Shown: positions 8,415 through 36,491 of the stretch, one piece after another | Layout of the letters: the number at the start of each line of letters is the position of its first letter | Numbering within the stretch: the first letter of the stretch is position 1 | Virus record (IMG/VR): IMGVR_UViG_3300018421_000082 | Location: 1-36,491 of that record | From: a virus | DNA: 36,491 nucleotides | Strand: one strand, 5' to 3' | Position numbers and translations under genes: made by a program | The notes under the pieces: model-generated | Databases searched by the model: none | Told to the model about the DNA's origin: nothing | Seen by the model: the letters and a program-made list of their open reading frames with translations, nothing else

Positions 8415-8571
8415 TAGCTACACAACTTTTCAGCAGTACATGAATAGGTTTACGGAATTCTTTGATTCTGATGAAATATTAGAAGCACAAGTATTTTTTT
8501 CCTATATGATATTGGACGGCTTAGATCCAGAAGATGCTTTTGGCATGGCTGTTGATAGGAGATTTATATGA
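8386..8571 (+). CDS. Hypothetical small helical protein
   Basis: From ATG 8386 it has 61 residues: a basic start (SNKKKKSG) then a helical acidic region (FFDSDEILEAQVFFSYMILDGLDPEDAFGMAVDRRF). ATG 8353 in the same frame has GGAGAG 9 nt upstream and is an alternative start giving 72 residues. The stop overlaps the next start (ATGA at 8568). No family was recognised. Confidence 0.5.
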   Translation: MSNKKKKSGNSYTTFQQYMNRFTEFFDSDEILEAQVFFSYMILDGLDPEDAFGMAVDRRFI

Positions 8572-9359
8572 TAGACCTTTGTATAGTTAACTATAATACT
8601 AGAGACCTTCTGAAAAGATTTCTAGATTGTCTACACTCTGATTTAAATCAGGGCAATAGATGTTGGACGTTAAATATAGCGGATAATGGTTCTAGTGATA
8701 ACAGTCATGATTGGATCATGCAGAACGGTTTAACGTACGAGATATCTAGGTATTTTCAAAATCAAAATGTTGGCTACTCTTCTGCCTGCAATAATATGGC
8801 ACATCATTCTACTTCTGAAATAATAGGTTTATTAAATTCAGATGTTTGGATGTCATCTTCTGATGTTAAAAAGATACAAGACATATTTGATCAGAACGAA
8901 GATATACATATACTTGGACCAAAGCAAAGAGATGAAAATGGTTTCATAACTCATGCTGGAATAGTTGGTACGAATACTGCTCCTAAACATAGGGGTTGGA
9001 GAGAGCATGATCCTGGAGATGAACTCTATAGGGATAGAATTAACTGTGTGACAGTTTCTGGCTCAGCCTATTTTATTAGGCGCTCTGTGTGGGATGCGTT
9101 AACTAATGATCCAGAGTATCGTAAAATGTTCCCTAATGCAGTCGGTGCATTTTTGCCAACTCCTCACTATTATGAGGAGACGTGGTGTTCGTATTTTGCT
9201 AGACACAGAGGCTATAATTTAGTCTATGATGGTTCCGTTTCTATAGGTCACAGTTGGCATAAGTCTTCTGCTGTCGGCGGACACGCTGATCAACATTTTT
9301 CTACTAGCAGAGAGATTTTTAGAGATGCATGTGATATGATAGGTATAGAGAGAGATTGA
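8568..9359 (+). CDS. Glycosyltransferase family 2 (GT-A fold)
   Basis: A 263-residue protein with the GT2 N-terminal pattern: a short beta strand then NYNTRDLLKRFLDCL, the nucleotide-sugar binding block ADNGSSDNS, NVGYSSACNNM, and the metal-binding D-x-D equivalent in LLNSDVWM. A later FIRRSVWD and EETWCSYFARHRGY block resembles the acceptor region of rhamnosyl/galactosyl-type GT2 enzymes. It would transfer a sugar from an activated donor in the cytoplasm. The acceptor (virion protein, DNA base or surface glycan) is unknown. It overlaps both neighbours by 4 nt or less. Confidence 0.8.
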   Translation: MIDLCIVNYNTRDLLKRFLDCLHSDLNQGNRCWTLNIADNGSSDNSHDWIMQNGLTYEISRYFQNQNVGYSSACNNMAHHSTSEIIGLLNSDVWMSSSDVKKIQDIFDQNEDIHILGPKQRDENGFITHAGIVGTNTAPKHRGWREHDPGDELYRDRINCVTVSGSAYFIRRSVWDALTNDPEYRKMFPNAVGAFLPTPHYYEETWCSYFARHRGYNLVYDGSVSIGHSWHKSSAVGGHADQHFSTSREIFRDACDMIGIERD

Positions 9360-10047: not shown

Positions 10048-10743
10048 ATGATCTATGCACAAATGATAGGAAGAAATGAATCTTCAAGATTTCTAGTCGA
10101 CGTACTGGAAAGATTATCTACTCAAGTAGATAAGATAATATTTACTGATGATTGTTCTGATGATGACACTCCAGAAATAGCTTCTCAGTATGCAGAAGTG
10201 TTTAGAACTCCGGAGCAATTATTTAACGTTCACGAAGGAAAACTAAGAGCATTTGCGTGGTCAAATCTCTCTAAGTTTGCTTCCGTAGGTGACTGGGTTA
10301 TCGCAATTGATTGCGATGAGAAGCTATTTCATACAGGAAATATGCCTATATCTGATGTATTAGATAATTCTCCTTTCGATGTGGTAAACGTTCGCTTTTA
10401 TCACATGTGGAACGAGCATCAGTATAGGGTGGATAAGCTTTGGGCTCCTACAAATAGCTCTCGTATATTTAGGTATATGGAGGATGGGGCATTCTTGAAT
10501 AGGGAGCTAGCATGTGGCTCTGAGCCTACCTATGTTAGAAATTGGATAGGCGCAAGAAACTTTTGGACTGACTCCAATCTTGTCATGCAGCATCTGGGAT
10601 ATATAAGAGACGAAGACAAGCAGTCTAAATACGAAAGATATTCGAATATAGATGGTGGTAAGTTCCACAACTTAGATCATATTAATTCAATTGTAGATGA
10701 AAACCCAGTTTTAATTAACTGGAGTTCATTAATCGAAAACTGA
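10048..10743 (+). CDS. Glycosyltransferase family 2-like protein
   Basis: A 231-residue protein with GT2 features: IGRNESSRFLVDVLERL at the N-terminus, the donor-binding TDDCSDDDT block and the catalytic-type AIDCDEKLF (D-x-D) near residue 92. The middle region (YHMWNEHQYRVDKLWAP) and late FRYMEDGAF resemble short single-domain glycosyltransferases that read NES/NEA at the N-terminus. AGGT lies upstream of the ATG. It forms a pair with the following gene. Donor and acceptor are unknown. Confidence 0.7.
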   Translation: MIYAQMIGRNESSRFLVDVLERLSTQVDKIIFTDDCSDDDTPEIASQYAEVFRTPEQLFNVHEGKLRAFAWSNLSKFASVGDWVIAIDCDEKLFHTGNMPISDVLDNSPFDVVNVRFYHMWNEHQYRVDKLWAPTNSSRIFRYMEDGAFLNRELACGSEPTYVRNWIGARNFWTDSNLVMQHLGYIRDEDKQSKYERYSNIDGGKFHNLDHINSIVDENPVLINWSSLIEN

Positions 10744-27430: not shown

Positions 27431-28414
27431 ATGGGTAGACCATATACAGGTTTTGATCAAATTTCCGGCGGTAAAAGAGCCGGATTTGAAACGTTTATTG
27501 ATCTTTTAGAGGCACATTTTGGCCTGTGGAACAATGGAACATATGGTGTCCGTAAGAAGAGGGGTAAGTCTTCTTACTCTGTTCATGCTACTGGTCGTGC
27601 CGGTGACTTAAGCTGGAGAGGTGCCCCTTATCGTGGCCCCGGTAACTACGATGCCGCAGTTCGCATGATGGACTTTTTAGCTACCCATGCTGATGAGCTT
27701 CATGTTGAAGCTATCTTCGATTATTATCCTGGTCCTTTTGGTCGCGGATGGAAGTGTGATCGTGGTGGCTGGCAAGTCTATTCTAAGAGAGCTTTCAGTG
27801 GTGCTCCTGGAGGAGACTGGGTCCATGTCGAGGTCAGCAATGCTAAGGCTGATGATCCCCAGTATTACATTGATACGATGAAGCGTCTTCTTGGCGATTC
27901 TCCCGTAGCAGTTAAGCCTTCTGCTGCTGCACCTCCTCCCCCTGCTCCTCCAAACAAGAAGCCTTGGCTTACTCGTGGTTCGAAGGGTGATGATGTTAAG
28001 GAGATGCAGGCTATTGTTGGTGCTGAGCCGGTAGATGGCGACTTTGGACGTAAGACCGAGGAGGCGGTTAAGGCCTGGCAGGCTAAGCACGATCAGCATG
28101 TTGATGGCATTTGGGGGCCCGGTTCGGCAAAACATGTTAAAGAAAACTGTGACCATGAGACTACGCCTCCAGCTGATAATGCTGATCCTGATACAGCAGC
28201 AGAGGAAGCTCCAAAGTATCCTGGGCATTCTGTTGCTCGTGGTCACGAACACGCTGATGAAGTTAAGCTTATTCAAGCTAAGGTTGGCGCTAAGCCCGAT
28301 GGTGATTTTGGTCCTGCTACCGAAAGAGCCGTTAAAGCGTGGCAGAAGGCTAATGGTAGATTGGCTGATGGTATTGTTGGCCCCAAGACATGGGAGGCAA
28401 TGTTCGGCTCATGA
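27431..28414 (+). CDS. Endolysin: M15-like peptidase with two peptidoglycan-binding domains
   Basis: A 327-residue lysis enzyme. Residues 1-155 form a zinc peptidase domain with SxHxxGxAxD (SVHATGRAGD, H52, D59) and GGDWVHVEV (H132), the layout of D,D-carboxypeptidase/M15-type enzymes. A Pro-rich linker (about 162-176) is followed by two peptidoglycan-binding repeats (about 180-238 and 265-327), each with a Gly-Asp-Phe-Gly turn (DGDFG) and an AVKAWQ helix. AAGGAG is upstream of the ATG, and codons are C/G-rich. It cuts host peptidoglycan after the holin acts. Cleavage specificity is not certain. Confidence 0.82.
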   Translation: MGRPYTGFDQISGGKRAGFETFIDLLEAHFGLWNNGTYGVRKKRGKSSYSVHATGRAGDLSWRGAPYRGPGNYDAAVRMMDFLATHADELHVEAIFDYYPGPFGRGWKCDRGGWQVYSKRAFSGAPGGDWVHVEVSNAKADDPQYYIDTMKRLLGDSPVAVKPSAAAPPPPAPPNKKPWLTRGSKGDDVKEMQAIVGAEPVDGDFGRKTEEAVKAWQAKHDQHVDGIWGPGSAKHVKENCDHETTPPADNADPDTAAEEAPKYPGHSVARGHEHADEVKLIQAKVGAKPDGDFGPATERAVKAWQKANGRLADGIVGPKTWEAMFGS

Positions 28415-28428
28415 AAGAGGAGAAGGAT

Positions 28429-28653
28429 ATGAAAGAGAAAACCATGTACGTCCTTGCTGTTGGAGTTATGCTGGCGATTCTCTTCGCCATTGTCGGTGAC
28501 TATCTGGTCGCCGCTATTGAGACTCAGACGACTGGCGAGGCCGTTGAGGTTTCGTCTGACGTGATGACGCTCGTGCAGACTGCTCTGGGCGGCGTCATTG
28601 GCATCATCGGTGGTTACTTCGGCGCTAAGGGCATGAAGAAAGACGATGATTGA
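28429..28653 (+). CDS. Holin-like two-helix membrane protein
   Basis: Starting at ATG 28429 (AGGAGAAGG upstream; ATG 28411 is an alternative overlapping the endolysin stop) it encodes 74 residues with two hydrophobic helices (MYVLAVGVMLAILFAIVGDY; VQTALGGVIGIIGGYFGAKG), a Thr/Glu-rich loop and a charged KKDDD tail, the usual holin charge layout. The overlap with the endolysin supports a lysis role. The r1t holin at 3365 is another candidate, so the phage may use two. Confidence 0.7.
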   Translation: MKEKTMYVLAVGVMLAILFAIVGDYLVAAIETQTTGEAVEVSSDVMTLVQTALGGVIGIIGGYFGAKGMKKDDD

Positions 28654-30251: not shown

Positions 30252-31130
30252 ATGAAAGTACTAGTTTTTGGTGCTGGTGGAGTAGTGGGGCAACACATGA
30301 TGCATCAAGCACCGGAAGAAGTTGAGCCCATATATACAAGAACACTAGGCGATGATAGATATTGTAAATTCATTTATGGGGAAGATAGTATAAATGAATT
30401 TTTAGATTTTCATAGACCCAATTTAATTATAAATTTGGCTGGAGAAAATAGAGTTGATATTGTAGAGTCTAGTCCTGAAAGATTTTATGACATCAATGTT
30501 CTTATGCCATCTGAAATAGTTGAGTGGTGTAATCGTAATCAATCTTATTTAATACAGTGTAGTACTCAAGCAGTTTTTTCTGGAAATAATCCACCTTATA
30601 GCCCCTTAGATCCAGTTGATCCAATTAATAAATATGGTGAACAAAAATCTAAAGCAGAAGATATTGTATTAAAATATTCAAAATCACTCGTAGCTAGATT
30701 AACATTTGTTTTAGGGGCTAGGTACTTTGTTGATATAGGTAGAAGAAATCCTTTTGAAGATATTATGGAAAAAGATAATCAGCTTCAGGTGGATGATAGG
30801 TTTTTTTCCCCTTTATTTGCACACGATGCGGCGTCGTCTTTGTGGGATCTTAGTTTGAATTACTTAAATTGGTCCAAGAAAATAGTTCATTTAGGTCATC
30901 CAACTAGATGCACAAGATTTTCAATAGCATCTGATACAAAATATCATCTTCATGGCATTTTGGACGCTAAAATCATGGGTGTTTCACATGAGTATTTTTC
31001 TGGCTTAGCTCAAAGAGCATACGATACAACTTGGGCATATAACGATTGCATTTATAATGATAGATATGAAGAAAATTTATTAACAGCATTTACGATATGG
31101 AGTAGAATAAATGATAAAGATAGAAGATAG
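30252..31130 (+). CDS. NAD-dependent sugar epimerase/dehydratase or RmlD-like reductase (SDR)
   Basis: A 292-residue extended short-chain dehydrogenase. The Rossmann motif is VFGAGGVVGQHMM at the N-terminus. The mid region NLAGENRVDIVESS and STQAVFSGNNPPYSP, with the YxxxK pair YGEQK (S/Y/K catalytic set), matches RmlD-type dTDP-4-dehydrorhamnose reductases. The enzyme would make or modify an activated sugar for the nearby glycosyltransferases. Substrate is not determined. It starts the operon at 30252-34431. Confidence 0.75.
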   Translation: MKVLVFGAGGVVGQHMMHQAPEEVEPIYTRTLGDDRYCKFIYGEDSINEFLDFHRPNLIINLAGENRVDIVESSPERFYDINVLMPSEIVEWCNRNQSYLIQCSTQAVFSGNNPPYSPLDPVDPINKYGEQKSKAEDIVLKYSKSLVARLTFVLGARYFVDIGRRNPFEDIMEKDNQLQVDDRFFSPLFAHDAASSLWDLSLNYLNWSKKIVHLGHPTRCTRFSIASDTKYHLHGILDAKIMGVSHEYFSGLAQRAYDTTWAYNDCIYNDRYEENLLTAFTIWSRINDKDRR

Positions 31131-31842
31131 AGCAAAAGATATATCAGATTTTTTAGGCGTATCATATGAAAGTGCGTATGAAAGATTGAAAAAAGGTTTT
31201 CATTTTAATCACTCAGAAGTGGCAAAAGATTTTATTCAAAAAAATGTTGATGTTAACGATGGTTCTGCGCTTTTAAATTGGTATAAGACCTCTGATGCGT
31301 ACGTGTGGGAGCTTTCTGCTTATCACTTAGAGGAAGCGTTTAATTACTCTGGTATGTGTAATGGAATTGCTTCTGGTCTTACTGCAACTAATAGAACTGA
31401 GGCCTTAGTTTTGGGTGATGGTGTTGGCGATTTAAGTGTAGTCATGTATGATCAAGGTATAGACGTAACTTATCACGATTTAGAGGACAGCTTGACCGCT
31501 CTTTTTGCAAAAAAGGTTTTCAATTCTAGAGATATAAAGACAAGATTTACATCAAATTGGGAACCAAATCTTGGCTATAGAGAATATAATGCAGTTGTTG
31601 CCCTAGATTTTTTTGAGCATCTTATTAATGTTGAGGAGTGGGTTAATGCAGTTCATAAGTGTATGAAAAAGGAAGGTGCGTTTATAGCTCAAAATGCTTT
31701 TGCAATAGGGGACGCAGAACATGGTAATTCAATACCTATGCATCTTTCTGTCAATAATAGATTTGAAAATGATTGGGGTCCATTGTTGGAGTCTGTTGGT
31801 TTTTATTTGCACGATAATGGAACGTGGTGGATTAAAAAGTGA
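31111..31842 (+). CDS. SAM-dependent methyltransferase (class I)
   Basis: A 243-residue protein with a class I methyltransferase core at about 95-200: ALVLGDGVGDLSVVM (motif I) and YHDLED (ribose-binding acid), then VVALDFFEHL (motif IV-like). The N-terminal 90 residues are helical. It could methylate a sugar, a small molecule or a protein in the sugar operon. It overlaps the epimerase end by 20 nt and the next gene by GTGA. Target is unknown. Confidence 0.7.
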   Translation: MIKIEDRAKDISDFLGVSYESAYERLKKGFHFNHSEVAKDFIQKNVDVNDGSALLNWYKTSDAYVWELSAYHLEEAFNYSGMCNGIASGLTATNRTEALVLGDGVGDLSVVMYDQGIDVTYHDLEDSLTALFAKKVFNSRDIKTRFTSNWEPNLGYREYNAVVALDFFEHLINVEEWVNAVHKCMKKEGAFIAQNAFAIGDAEHGNSIPMHLSVNNRFENDWGPLLESVGFYLHDNGTWWIKK

Positions 31843-32699
31843 GAATAGATTTCGGTACTGCTAGCTATAATAACCCGGTAAAATTAGATAAGGCCATAAC
31901 TGCCTTTAGGCAAAAATCTAAGTCAGATTGGCGCCTGCTTGTTGTAGATAATAATTCTTCAGACGACGGTGTTCGTGAGGTGATAGAGCGTCATATATCT
32001 CAAGATAGTAGGATTGTAGCAGAATTTAATAAAGAGAATTTAAGATATGTAGGGGCAGTAAATAGAATATTGTCTTGGGCAGAAACTAATAATGTTGGAT
32101 ATATAGACAACGATGCTTATATAGAAACAGATGCATGGGATATCAAGCTTTCTTCTTACCTTGAGTCTAACCATGAGGTTGGGATGGCATTTCCTAACGG
32201 AGGTGCCTATCCAATTAAGAGACCTTCTTATTTGGAGATTTTGTGGGGTGTTGGTTTTTGTTGGATTCTTAATAGGCAGAGATTTTTAGAAATAGGTGGA
32301 TTTGACACTGAAATAGGCCATCAGGAAGAGGTGGACTTCCAGACTAGGCTGCATTTAGCAGGATATAGATGTGTTGCAGATCCGTCAGTTAGGGTTAGTC
32401 ATGATTCAACCGCATCTACCGATCCATCTGCCAGAGAAAGAATTAATAATGGAGTTATAAACTGGGTAAATAAATGGAATGAATATTTTGTTGGTCCTCA
32501 CGTAAACTATTATAGTCCTAATGTAACTAGATTTGAAGATTGGCATGCGATATACTTAGAGGAATGGTATCAGCAGCAGCCAGAGCTTCAGGGGATAAAT
32601 GATAATCCAGAGACTATTTTTATAAAAGGTTTAGGTAGAGAAGTGGATTTAATAAAGGTCCCTAGATGGCAAAATTTGTATAGAGGAAGAATAATATGA
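31839..32699 (+). CDS. Glycosyltransferase family 2
   Basis: A 286-residue GT2 enzyme starting at GTG: FGTASYNNPVKLDKAITAF, VVDNNSSDDGVREVIE (donor site), GYIDNDAYIE (D-x-D type) and FCWILNRQRFLEIGGFDTEI followed by GHQEEVDFQTRLHLAGYRC, which match GT2 acceptor-side motifs with the catalytic ED-like residues. The sugar and acceptor are unknown. It sits in the sugar operon and is coupled to neighbours by 4-nt overlaps. Confidence 0.8.
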   Translation: MRIDFGTASYNNPVKLDKAITAFRQKSKSDWRLLVVDNNSSDDGVREVIERHISQDSRIVAEFNKENLRYVGAVNRILSWAETNNVGYIDNDAYIETDAWDIKLSSYLESNHEVGMAFPNGGAYPIKRPSYLEILWGVGFCWILNRQRFLEIGGFDTEIGHQEEVDFQTRLHLAGYRCVADPSVRVSHDSTASTDPSARERINNGVINWVNKWNEYFVGPHVNYYSPNVTRFEDWHAIYLEEWYQQQPELQGINDNPETIFIKGLGREVDLIKVPRWQNLYRGRII

Positions 32700-33229
32700 G
32701 ATTAGAAACCATACCTAAAGGTGATGGAATAAAGGTCGTTATAGGAACTAGAACATATTTAGGTCCAGATTGGACACACGTTGATATAGATCCAACTCCA
32801 CTGTATGACCATGTTAATAGTAAATATGTTCCTGTTGATGTTGTATCGGACGCTAGAAAGATAAAACTACCTAACGATTATGCAGACATAGTATATACTT
32901 CTGAGTGCCTAGAGCATTTTCCTTGGAAGGAGTATAAATCTGTTTTAGCAGAATGGTGTAGGATATTGAAGCCAGGTGGAATGATACGTGTGGAGGTTCC
33001 AGACTTCCTTCTTGCTTGTCAGCAGATACTTTCTTGGGACTCGCTAGAGGGGGATCGCGCTATGCAGCAAATATTTTTTGCCGAGCAGCTAAACCAGTTT
33101 GATTTTCATTTTGTTGGTATAACACATAGGATGTTGGTAGATGATTTTGAGTCTATGAATTTTCATGTGATTGATGTTAAAAGAGGTAATGAATGGGGAT
33201 GGCTGAAAGTAGATGCTATTAAACAATGA
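32696..33229 (+). CDS. SAM-dependent methyltransferase
   Basis: A 177-residue class I methyltransferase: KVVIGTRTYLGPDWTHVDID, then DVVSDARKIKLPNDYADIVY (motif II/III with acidic residue), SECLEHFPW (motif IV) and GGMIRVEVPDFLLAC (motif VI region). It resembles short sugar- or O-methyltransferases of surface-polysaccharide clusters. It lies in the sugar operon with an ATGA overlap. Confidence 0.72.
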   Translation: MRLETIPKGDGIKVVIGTRTYLGPDWTHVDIDPTPLYDHVNSKYVPVDVVSDARKIKLPNDYADIVYTSECLEHFPWKEYKSVLAEWCRILKPGGMIRVEVPDFLLACQQILSWDSLEGDRAMQQIFFAEQLNQFDFHFVGITHRMLVDDFESMNFHVIDVKRGNEWGWLKVDAIKQ

Positions 33230-33677
33230 TTTTATATTACATGTTATAAGGGATGTTTTTGGGACTTTTAAGTCCCCAATTCTTTATGGATACGATCCAG
33301 ATCTATATGCACAGTTCTGGAGCCCTCAACATAGCATGGGTGTACATATGTACTATAGCCATGATGTTAACAGTCCAATGGAAAAGTCTGTTTTTTGGAA
33401 TATTCAAAATGAGTCTTTGAATCCTTTGTCTTTTGATTATAGTGATTTTTTTGTTTCTATAAATTATAATTTAAATATACCTTTTCACTTGTCTGAGTCT
33501 TTTGCTGGTCATGTTAGACATTTTCTTAAGACCGGAAGCAAATGTCTGATAGTTAATCCTGGTTCTTGGGCAGATTATTTTGATCAGATTATGACTCGCT
33601 GTTATGATATAGAGAGAGAAGTTAAAAGATTTTCTATGTTTAAAAATCAAAAGGTTTTTGTGTATGAAAATATATGA
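33213..33677 (+). CDS. Unknown protein in the sugar operon, possibly methyltransferase-like
   Basis: A 154-residue protein overlapping the preceding methyltransferase by 17 nt. A stretch KTGSKCLIVNPGSWADYFDQ resembles the late methyltransferase strand (LKPGGKLLIVNP), but no SAM-binding motif I is visible, so it may be a partial or diverged relative. It is rich in Tyr, Phe and Asp. Function is unknown. Confidence 0.5.
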   Translation: MLLNNDFILHVIRDVFGTFKSPILYGYDPDLYAQFWSPQHSMGVHMYYSHDVNSPMEKSVFWNIQNESLNPLSFDYSDFFVSINYNLNIPFHLSESFAGHVRHFLKTGSKCLIVNPGSWADYFDQIMTRCYDIEREVKRFSMFKNQKVFVYENI

Positions 33678-34431
33678 TTGTTTTACATTCTATAATGAAG
33701 AAGAGATGTTAAAGCTAAGATTAAATGAGCTTAATGATGTTGTTGATTACTTTTTTATTGTAGAAGCTGATAGAACTTTTACTGGCAAGGGTAAGGAATT
33801 CTATATTGATCAATATGATTGGATAAAAGATTTTGATCATAAAATAATTAGATCTTTTATTTCACTATATGATTATAGGAATGGCGACAGTGCTTGGGAG
33901 GCAGAGTTTGCGCAGAGAAATAGCATAAGTGAAGTAGCCAACTATGCTGATGGCATGGACGTATGTATTATTTCTGATGTAGATGAAATACCTAGGCCAG
34001 ATGTTTTAGCTTCTTCTAGAATATGTTTTGATTTAGAAACCCCTGTTCAGCTTGATGTTGATCAGTATTTTTGGGGTTTTAATTGGTTGACGCCAGCTCA
34101 CTGCAATAATGGCGGAAGACCTGTTGTTTGTAGGGTTGATGATTTAAAGCTGTATTCTCCTCAGGAAATGAGAGCAGATTCTCAAATGAAGAGAATACCT
34201 GACGCTGGGTGGCATTTTTCTTTCTTTATGGATCTTGATTATATAGTCAATAAAATTGAGTCGTTTGCCCATACCGAATATGATTCTGAGGAGTATAAGA
34301 ATTTAGAAAAAATTCGTTATAGAATCATGAATGGAATTGACCCGTTCGATAGGTTTCCGCTAAAATATAAGGAAATAGATAATACATACCCAAGATACGT
34401 TAAGGAGAAATACCTTGCCAAAGCCCAGTAA
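33664..34431 (+). CDS. Glycosyltransferase family 17-like protein
   Basis: From ATG 33664 it encodes 255 residues matching GT17: IYDCFTFYNEEEMLKLRLNE and VVDYFFIVEADRTFTGKGKE in the N-terminal part, then VCIISDVDEIPRP (D-x-D-E). GT17 enzymes of eukaryotes add bisecting N-acetylglucosamine to glycans; bacterial members act in surface glycan modification. A weak in-frame TTG at 33658 exists. Donor and acceptor are not known. It ends the sugar operon. Confidence 0.82.
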   Translation: MKIYDCFTFYNEEEMLKLRLNELNDVVDYFFIVEADRTFTGKGKEFYIDQYDWIKDFDHKIIRSFISLYDYRNGDSAWEAEFAQRNSISEVANYADGMDVCIISDVDEIPRPDVLASSRICFDLETPVQLDVDQYFWGFNWLTPAHCNNGGRPVVCRVDDLKLYSPQEMRADSQMKRIPDAGWHFSFFMDLDYIVNKIESFAHTEYDSEEYKNLEKIRYRIMNGIDPFDRFPLKYKEIDNTYPRYVKEKYLAKAQ

Positions 34432-34662: not shown

Positions 34663-35034
34663 ATGAGTACAAAAAATGGAGAATACTGGTTGGCTTCTTT
34701 TCTTTCTAATATAGAGGAAGAAGAGAAATGGAAACTTGCGCCAGCAGAAAAAGAATTTGCAGACTCCCTGCTTTCTATAGCAGCAAAGTACGGTAAGCTA
34801 GCCGATGGTGATGAGAACGGTATCTGGGTTGGTTATGAAGGTCCTGAGGAGAACGACGACGCAGCCATAGGCGTTAAGTGTTCTAACTGTTATCTTCATG
34901 AGTCTGAGGTTGTCTGTAAGATAGCTAAGGTCGCTATACACCCAGAAGGCAAATGCAGACTTGCTGTTATACCTCCTGGTATGGTCTCGATGAATGATGA
35001 TGACTCGAAAGATGACGATTCTTACGACGATTAA
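34663..35034 (+). CDS. Cys-containing protein (123 aa), possible Fe-S or zinc site
   Basis: A 123-residue acidic protein. Four cysteines occur as KCSNCYLHESEVVCKIA and EGKCRLAVIPP, i.e. C-x2-C-x9-C and a fourth Cys, a pattern resembling HiPIP-like or phage head-associated Cys domains. An acidic tail (DDDSKDDDSYDD) follows. GGAGG lies before the ATG. The resemblance is by eye. Function is unknown; a capsid-associated protein is possible. Confidence 0.55.
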   Translation: MSTKNGEYWLASFLSNIEEEEKWKLAPAEKEFADSLLSIAAKYGKLADGDENGIWVGYEGPEENDDAAIGVKCSNCYLHESEVVCKIAKVAIHPEGKCRLAVIPPGMVSMNDDDSKDDDSYDD

Positions 35035-35087: not shown

Positions 35088-35324
35088 ATGAAAAATATTC
35101 TATTAAGGATACTGGCAGCTTTTGCTGCTTCTGGTTTAGGCGTTGTTGGTGCCGGTGCAATAGCTGGCATTGAGCTTTGGAAAGCTGTTTTGATGGCAGG
35201 CATTGGCGGTGTCGCCTATGTTGTTGAAGGGCTGGCTAGAGCCTATATGGACGACGGTGTTTTAACTAAAGAAGAGATTGACGCCGTGTTTAATAAGGTT
35301 GATAAGAAAGCTAAAGCTGACTAA
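35088..35324 (+). CDS. Membrane protein, holin-like
   Basis: A 78-residue protein with an N-terminal hydrophobic region (LLRILAAFAASGLGVVGAGA; AVLMAGIGGVAYVVEGLARA), two helices with small residues, and a polar C-terminus (MDDGVLTKEEIDAVFNKVDK) like that of actinophage holin-like proteins. GGAGG lies before the ATG. The stop overlaps the stop of the opposing minus-strand gene. Holin function is inference. Confidence 0.6.
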   Translation: MKNILLRILAAFAASGLGVVGAGAIAGIELWKAVLMAGIGGVAYVVEGLARAYMDDGVLTKEEIDAVFNKVDKKAKAD

Positions 35325-35542
35325 TCATCTTTACTTGTTATTATAACAGCAAGGTGTACCACCAGTGCTGCTATAGACATCCATAGACCCCATTTTAGTG
35401 TGTCTCCACTTAATGTGATGAGTACTAGGCCTGTTCCTGCTAGTGTCCAAGATAGGTCTCCCATTTCATTCCATATTGCTATAAGCTTGTCTTTTATTTT
35501 TGATAGGTATTTCATAGGGGTAAATTCCCATTTGTCAGCCAT
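35321..35542 (-). CDS. Small membrane protein, minus strand
   Basis: A 73-residue protein with two hydrophobic helices near its C-terminus (DLSWTLAGTGLVLITLSGDT; GLWMSIAALVVHLAVIIT) and an N-terminal basic part (MADKWEFTPMKYLSKIKDKL). AAAGAAAGGATGAG precedes the ATG on its strand. It faces the preceding gene with overlapping stops. It is co-oriented with the LPXTG gene and separated from it by 3 nt. It may be a membrane partner of that protein or a second holin-like protein. Function is unknown. Confidence 0.6.
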   Translation of the reverse strand: MADKWEFTPMKYLSKIKDKLIAIWNEMGDLSWTLAGTGLVLITLSGDTLKWGLWMSIAALVVHLAVIITSKDD

Positions 35543-35545
35543 GAC

Positions 35546-36491
35546 TCATCCTTTCTTTGAGGTAGACCAGAACACCATACCCATTCCAGCACCAAGGGTG
35601 AGTAGGGCCCATATTAATAATGACATTTCGCCACCGGTTACTGGTAGCATTGGTTGAGGGGCAGGAGCGACCTCGGTTGGTTCTTCAGCTTCAACTGGAG
35701 CAGGTTGCTCTATGGGCTGTGATTCCTGTTCTGGAACTTTGGCAGGCTCTGGCTGAATTTCAGTAAGCTTTACTGCTACCTGAGAGAACTCTTCAGGCCC
35801 CCAGCCCTCACTGTTTTGTGCCGACACGGCGAACGTGTACTCTACGCCTGGCTCAAGACCTGTAAGAACGCATGACAACTCGGTTGTTACGCACGTTCCT
35901 CCATCTGGTATGCTACGAACTCTGTATCCGGTAATTGGACCGTTTCCATCTTGCCATGGAACATCCCATTCTAATATTACCGAATCAGTACCAGCGGTTG
36001 CCCATGGCCATGGTGGAACTGGACCTGGAACCCGAGGAGCAGCAGGTTCTGCAGAAGCAGTAGGTGTAGGACTGGGGCTGGGCGATGGGGCTGGTGTGGG
36101 AGCTGGATCAGCATCCGGTGCAGGAGTGGCTTCAGCAATGGCGCCCATAGATACCGGCACCTGACGGGAAGTGCCATTCAACGAAATCGTCAACGTTTCA
36201 TCAGCCTGATTTTCGCCAGTCACAGAAATTGTGCAAGAACCACCAGCCGGGATCGTCGCTCCACAATCCTCCGAAATCGTGAAATCCGTGCCAGTGATTG
36301 AAATGCTGTCCACGGTGATGTCAGAACCACTGGTGTTCTCAATCACAATGTCATTCGTCTCACCAGCCGCATCAAACTCAATCGCGGTCAACGAGAACGA
36401 CGCCACATAACAGTTGGAGCCGCCAGTAAGCAGCCCGCTGTACGTGGAGAGGAAGATGTCGCCACTCTTCTCGTACAGGAACATCACATCA
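35546..36491 (-). CDS. LPXTG cell-wall-anchored protein with Ig-like and fibronectin III domains (5' truncated)
   Basis: The frame is open to the window edge on the minus strand (the codon before the GTG at 36487 reads Asp), so the true start is outside. Visible parts: an Ig-like beta domain (EFDAAGETNDIVIENTSGSD, CGATIPAGGSCTISVTG), a Pro-rich linker (APTPAPSPSPSPTPTA-like), a fibronectin type III domain (GYRVRSIPDGG...YTFAVSAQNSEGWG), a second Pro/Glu linker, and a complete C-terminal sorting signal: LPVTG (35633-35647), a hydrophobic helix and a KKG tail. Sortase would link it to peptidoglycan. Proteins with this signal are host-surface proteins, so acquisition is likely. No signal peptide is visible because the N-terminus is missing. 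Confidence 0.85.
   Translation of the reverse strand, partial: DVMFLYEKSGDIFLSTYSGLLTGGSNCYVASFSLTAIEFDAAGETNDIVIENTSGSDITVDSISITGTDFTISEDCGATIPAGGSCTISVTGENQADETLTISLNGTSRQVPVSMGAIAEATPAPDADPAPTPAPSPSPSPTPTASAEPAAPRVPGPVPPWPWATAGTDSVILEWDVPWQDGNGPITGYRVRSIPDGGTCVTTELSCVLTGLEPGVEYTFAVSAQNSEGWGPEEFSQVAVKLTEIQPEPAKVPEQESQPIEQPAPVEAEEPTEVAPAPQPMLPVTGGEMSLLIWALLTLGAGMGMVFWSTSKKG

Follow-up and report, generated by a model that had tools for sequence, protein, structure and literature searches.

A predicted LPXTG-tagged surface protein encoded beside lysis genes in probable actinobacteriophages

Gram-positive bacteria fix proteins onto their own cell wall by means of a C-terminal LPXTG sorting signal, and phage-coded substrates of sortase have so far been discussed as prophage virulence factors. 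One end of an IMG/VR virus record of 36,491 bases (IMGVR_UViG_3300018421_000082; the whole stretch was analysed and is referred to hereafter as the window) carries a gene with this signal. The open reading frame (314 aa; 35546-36490, minus strand, stop codon at 35546-35548) is 5'-incomplete and leaves the contig at its right edge, as the original prediction from the sequence had stated, and the window holds only the C-terminal part of the protein.

Two domains were recognised in this part, besides Pro-rich linkers. The predicted fibronectin type III domain is a strong match to Pfam PF00041 (E 2.6e-15, above the curated cut-off) at residues 166-233 (35792-35995, minus strand). A second domain, described beforehand only as beta-rich, was matched as an Ig-like domain of the ASH or choice-of-anchor-D type at residues ~41-98 (36197-36370, minus strand), but the match is weak; Pfam ASH (E 5.2e-3) and NCBIfam NF012200 (E 1.4e-5) both fall below their cut-offs, the latter with 25.6 bits against a curated 45 bits.

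The LPVTG motif can be read directly at exactly 35633-35647 (minus strand), where it had been placed, and is followed by a hydrophobic segment and a basic tail ending in KKG (35549-35632, minus strand; GEMSLLIWALLTLGAGMGMVFWSTSKKG), giving a protein that ends in ...PMLPVTGGEMSLLIWALLTLGAGMGMVFWSTSKKG. The LPXTG motif, hydrophobic segment and short basic tail expected of a sortase substrate are thus all present. Among shuffled C-terminal tails, 5 of 11,088 passed an equivalent test for a sorting signal, and the signature is not due to chance. The profile TIGR01167 (LPXTG_anchor) was dropped as a detector: it found no match in the window record, stayed below threshold in the sister contigs described below (13.6 bits against a cut-off of 15.9) and fired in 14 of 14 control genomes at E<=1. 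Because this profile gave nothing above threshold, our assignment of the anchor rests on the anatomy of the motif and on its conservation.

Homologues of the protein were found in four IMG/VR contigs, with ~76% identity over the reading frame in three (L002-L004) and 64-71% over the fragment present in the other (L005). Each of these contigs, too, breaks within the LPXTG gene. A fifth contig (L010), which has 111 nt in common with the start of L004 at 100% identity, provides the beginning of the gene. The original prediction had proposed a search for a signal peptide; the one sister with a readable start opens with MKKILSALAALAIPLSILPMTQNPVKA, which is signal peptide-like when read by eye, while the N-terminus of the window protein itself lies off the contig and exact matching of 30 bases turned up nothing that would extend the window at this 5' end. 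The sister protein assembled from L010 and L004 is 649 aa long. It has Asp-boxes at residues 83, 127, 171, 215 and 306, that is, at a 44-aa period with one repeat that lacks a clear box, and this regular spacing is the one expected of a putative Asp-box, sialidase-like beta-propeller, although Pfam BNR remained sub-threshold; the region corresponds to a part of the protein outside the window. The sister also carries the Ig-like and Fn3 domains and has kept LPVTG, with a membrane tail that has diverged. A structure of a sister fragment predicted with AlphaFold2 was discarded for its low model quality (pLDDT 44).

The first 125 codons of the alignment between window and sister contain 51 synonymous changes and 4 amino-acid changes; judged by this ratio, the coding sequence is under purifying selection. 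The LPVTGG of the motif is preserved in the 76%-identical homologues despite synonymous codon differences, and the tail beyond it cannot be aligned. A tblastn search of INPHARED with the LPXTG protein of either family (the second is described below) gave no match, and a scan of GTDB genomes with the window-family alignment returned pattern-matching stretches, none of which was confirmed. That six independent contigs (L002-L005, L010 and the right end of the window) all terminate within one LPVTG gene suggests a place where assemblies tend to break, through repeats or strain variation.

The surroundings of the gene are those of a phage. Directly downstream lies the small membrane gene that had been noted as its neighbour, which encodes 73 aa (35321-35542, minus strand). 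It is followed, on the plus strand, by genes for a holin-like membrane protein of 78 aa (35088-35324; phrog_443 holin, E 7.9e-4; phrog_26427, E 2.9e-23) and for a protein of 123 aa (34663-35034) whose homologue in another contig, L022, stands between the endolysin and LPXTG genes. Further members of the lysis set are an endolysin with peptidoglycan-binding domains (27431-28414, plus strand) and a holin-like membrane protein of 87 aa (28390-28653, plus strand), homologues of which directly follow the LPXTG gene in L022 and L178. At the DNA level the window is similar to the sister contigs over 686 bp of the endolysin gene (69%), over 227 bp (78%) and over 116 bp (74%). In L010 the major capsid gene (phrog_10, E 2.3e-68) is followed by a gene for a secreted T-rich protein and then by the sister LPXTG gene. 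The linkage to phages that the original prediction asked to see checked is therefore borne out by the 73-aa membrane gene, the holin-like genes and one sister contig with a major capsid gene.

Homologues of the 73-aa protein adjoin LPXTG genes in many phages. In five contigs (DSL-LC01, as L258 14388-17219, and L193, L227, L252 and L257) this two-helix membrane part forms the C-terminal end of a large secreted Thr-rich protein, and elsewhere the 73-aa and T-rich genes are separate neighbours. Because of these fusions the two probably act together. Of 79 loci that contain the 73-aa family, only a part also have an LPXTG gene; in L261-L263, which hold the closest relatives of the window's 73-aa gene, the secreted T-rich protein is present and an adjacent LPXTG gene is not. 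By reading only, the window also contains glycosyltransferase-like ORFs (8568-9359, 10048-10743, 31839-32699 and 33658-34431) and methyltransferase- and sugar-epimerase-like ORFs (30252-33229), which suggests that the phage may modify glycans.

From the 425 relatives found for the capsid protein of the sister, 80 were examined for sorting signals, and a second LPXTG family came to light. LPVTG proteins with a different ectodomain are encoded in L022 and L024-L026 and an LPETG relative in G022; the ectodomains of the two families are unrelated. In G022 the order is a T-rich secreted protein with a SUEL lectin domain, a 72-aa membrane protein (55% identity to the window's 73-aa protein), the LPETG protein, a VanY-type endolysin and small membrane proteins. 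The SUEL domain, of the D-galactoside/L-rhamnose-binding type, scores above its cut-off (E 5.7e-9; L117 3139-4881). Relatives of the second family occur in 102 IMG/VR viral contigs, and in the present group LPXTG proteins are not the rarity among phages that the original prediction took them to be. In the GTDB genome scan this family, likewise, yielded pattern-matching stretches and no confirmed member.

The second family was found with ectodomain patterns, which leaves its C-terminus under no selection from the search. The 80 loci kept represent 53 distinct proteins; apart from one that is cut, every one of them, 52 in all, ends in a sorting signal. Among 38 non-redundant members, column entropies across the motif were 0.18 (L), 0 (P), 3.27 (x), 0.35 (T) and 0 bits (G), while most positions on either side reach roughly 2 to 3.6 bits, with one conserved glycine of the membrane segment at 0.81. 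This is the pattern expected for a sortase site under selection. Most of the proteins have a signal-peptide-like start. The ectodomain is conserved at no less than 61% identity to the first row of its alignment; a Foldseek search of the PDB gave only matches to Ig-like parts or global misfits (TM-score 0.2), and its N-terminal alpha/beta domain had no matching solved structure there. Near the 53 distinct genes we found the 78-aa holin-like gene in 43, the endolysin in 41 and the 73-aa gene in 37, the counts being limited to these three neighbours as matches to G022_82 and to T-rich proteins may be inflated by low complexity.

To describe the carriers we tested 16 contigs: the window together with 15 others that have an LPXTG gene of one family or the other. 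WhiB, which is restricted to actinobacteria and their phages (PMC6802176, PMC10202952), is encoded in 12 of the 16, though none was seen in the window fragment. No contig had a tyrosine integrase and one (G002, which carries the sister gene) had a serine recombinase. A search of 50 phage records found no sortase, and use of the host's sortase, as originally proposed, is the natural reading of this absence. Taken together, the frequency of WhiB, the near absence of integrases and the lack of a sortase make the carriers look like mostly virulent actinobacteriophages that use the sortase of the host, and the window virus probably infects lake-dwelling actinobacteria. The phrog_10 capsid was matched in 7 of these 16 contigs, and a fragment without a match need not come from a phage that lacks this capsid. 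In contigs G052, G055, G058 and G063 the match to phrog_10 crosses one to four stop codons; the capsid gene there may be split or interrupted, or these may be frame ends.

What, then, might the protein do? The occurrence of a tagged gene beside lysis genes in dozens of related viruses suggests that the host surface is repainted during infection. We propose that an actinobacteriophage makes a secreted multi-domain protein consisting of a signal peptide, an Asp-box propeller, Ig-like and Fn3 domains, a Pro-rich stalk and the LPXTG signal. Judging by its gene neighbours, the protein would probably be synthesised late in infection, alongside the lysis genes. The host would export it, and the host sortase would cleave it at LPVTG and attach it to peptidoglycan by a covalent bond. 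In this position on the wall it may bind or mask surface glycans that act as the phage receptor, and the dying cell, and later its wall fragments, would no longer absorb incoming and newly released virions. A wall-anchored protein that masks glycan receptors and blocks adsorption to infected cells and debris is the most likely reading of the locus, with a probability of about 0.5. Its setting in a lysis cassette favours a late surface function. Asp-box repeats, together with weak profile matches, point to putative glycan binding, and the SUEL lectin domain of the neighbour protein in G022 would fit such a role. Against receptor masking, no LPXTG sorting signal was found in ~125.8 kb scanned of DSL-LC01, a complete genome from Dishui Lake with a predicted Actinomycetia host (PMC10611076) that shares the holin-like gene, and a convincing LPXTG gene is present in only 3 of 12 largely scanned relatives; LPXTG genes are thus not universal. 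Published exclusion proteins such as Llp, moreover, are described as being made early in infection (PMC9586334), unlike the late timing proposed here.

Receptor masking might belong to something wider, namely a surface-remodelling set that a large group of mostly virulent actinobacteriophages deploys together with lysis. The host sortase would fix interchangeable ectodomains covalently to the wall, the T-rich protein and the 73-aa membrane part would join them as a lectin-like partner held in the membrane, and the whole would give phages a general means of adsorption control in Gram-positive hosts. We offer this extension tentatively and hold it to be less likely than not.

Among the alternatives, the protein could be a wall-anchored adhesin by which infected cells aggregate or attach to surfaces, to other cells or to grazers, which would bring the progeny out close to new hosts or shield the infected cell until lysis. 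The combination of Fn3 and Ig-like domains, a T/P-rich stalk and Asp-boxes with a neighbouring SUEL-lectin protein is typical of adhesins, and the second-family ectodomain is well conserved, its N-terminal part being without a counterpart among solved structures. Placement in the lysis set, however, leaves little time for any benefit before the cell lyses, and we regard an adhesin as unlikely.

It is doubtful, too, that the protein acts with the 73-aa and T-rich proteins in controlling lysis or recruiting the lysin, for example by holding the endolysin at the wall and timing its release. Such a role would suit the tight linkage of the LPXTG gene to endolysin and holin-like genes in most loci and the fusion of the 73-aa part to the T-rich secreted protein. 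Many relatives with the same lysis genes nonetheless lack an LPXTG gene, the domains are of a binding type, and the ectodomains of the two LPXTG families are not related.

We consider it highly unlikely that the protein decorates the virion, its LPXTG end being a relic or a fastener from particle to wall. Only one gene separates the sister gene from the major capsid gene upstream of it and phrog_6977, annotated as a minor tail protein, matches the Fn3 region, but that match is confined to the Fn3 domain. The signal-peptide-like start of the sister and of most second-family proteins, together with a C-terminal hydrophobic segment, conflicts with assembly in the cytoplasm, and the LPXTG motif is strongly constrained and shows no decay.

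Whether the gene is the phage's own was raised by the original prediction, which named an origin in a different replicon, by chimeric assembly, as grounds for rejecting it. The GC3 of the window gene starts at 0.80 over its first 30 codons and has dropped to 0.27 by codon 120, compared to 0.31-0.39 in the other window genes. Such a profile could come from a piece of the host genome or of another replicon joined on at the contig end, and the gene does touch that end. On the other hand, the reading frame is open and collinear with the sister-phage homologues through the change in composition, the neighbours are shared phage genes, and homologues are found in viral contigs only, with none confirmed in the GTDB genome scan. 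We therefore hold a chimera to be very improbable; because of that collinearity, the foreign 5' composition more probably reflects recombination with a relative of higher GC, the LPXTG gene of L004 having a GC3 of 0.57. Neither of the refuting conditions named there, a different replicon and a missing signal peptide, is favoured by these results, the second as judged from the sister; the N-terminus of the window protein lies off the contig and the 5' end of its gene is compositionally foreign. Across 36010-36490 of the window both GC and GC3 are far higher than in the remaining contig and fall gradually, as in a mosaic gene or a contig-end artefact.

A lysogenic conversion factor like SasX, by which a temperate phage changes the surface of its lysogen, is scarcely credible because integrases are nearly absent and the gene is confirmed in no GTDB bacterial genome, where prophages would show, even though phage LPXTG proteins are known from that setting (PMC6066798), the single serine recombinase is on a contig with the sister gene and DSL-LC01 is predicted to be lysogenic (PMC10611076).

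If lytic actinobacteriophages use the host sortase, phages of the most abundant freshwater bacteria would have a way of controlling adsorption that lends itself to testing, and the invariance of the motif in virus-only proteins would be a marker for further genes of this kind. In a search confined to the open-access literature we came across no account of LPXTG proteins as a conserved trait of virulent phages.

Several known proteins bear comparison. A Big-1 protein fragment of an uncultured Caudovirales phage (A0A6J5NDS9, in BFVD) is 62% identical over the second-family ectodomain; it is shown as a Big-1 fragment only and is kin to that family, not to the window protein. Bacterial choice-of-anchor-D and Fn3 LPXTG proteins (NF012200, PF00041) have the same order of Ig-like domain, Fn3 domain, Pro-rich linker and C-terminal anchor, whereas the protein described here is phage-encoded and its NF012200 match is below the curated cut-off. 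The closest precedent is SasX/SesI, an LPXTG surface protein on a phiSPbeta-like staphylococcal prophage that is described as a colonisation and virulence factor (PMC6066798) and is likewise a surface-anchored protein with a phage-borne gene. SasX/SesI resides on a lysogenic prophage, whereas the present carriers mostly lack integrases and have the gene in a lysis set. In addition, their ectodomain differs in type, and the hosts here are probably aquatic actinobacteria. A SasX-type gene would be carried by a temperate phage or be integrated in hosts, of which the integrase tests on 16 contigs and the GTDB genome scan gave no sign beyond the one serine recombinase. In its proposed action the protein resembles the T5 Llp-type lipoproteins, phage proteins anchored in the envelope of the host that keep virions from adsorbing to infected cells and to the fragments left by lysis (PMC9586334). 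This is an analogy of working only; Llp has no sequence relation to the window protein and is small, early expressed and lipid-anchored in the Gram-negative periplasm. If lytic actinobacteriophages do use the host sortase in this way, their LPXTG proteins would be the Gram-positive equivalent of the exclusion lipoproteins known from coliphages.
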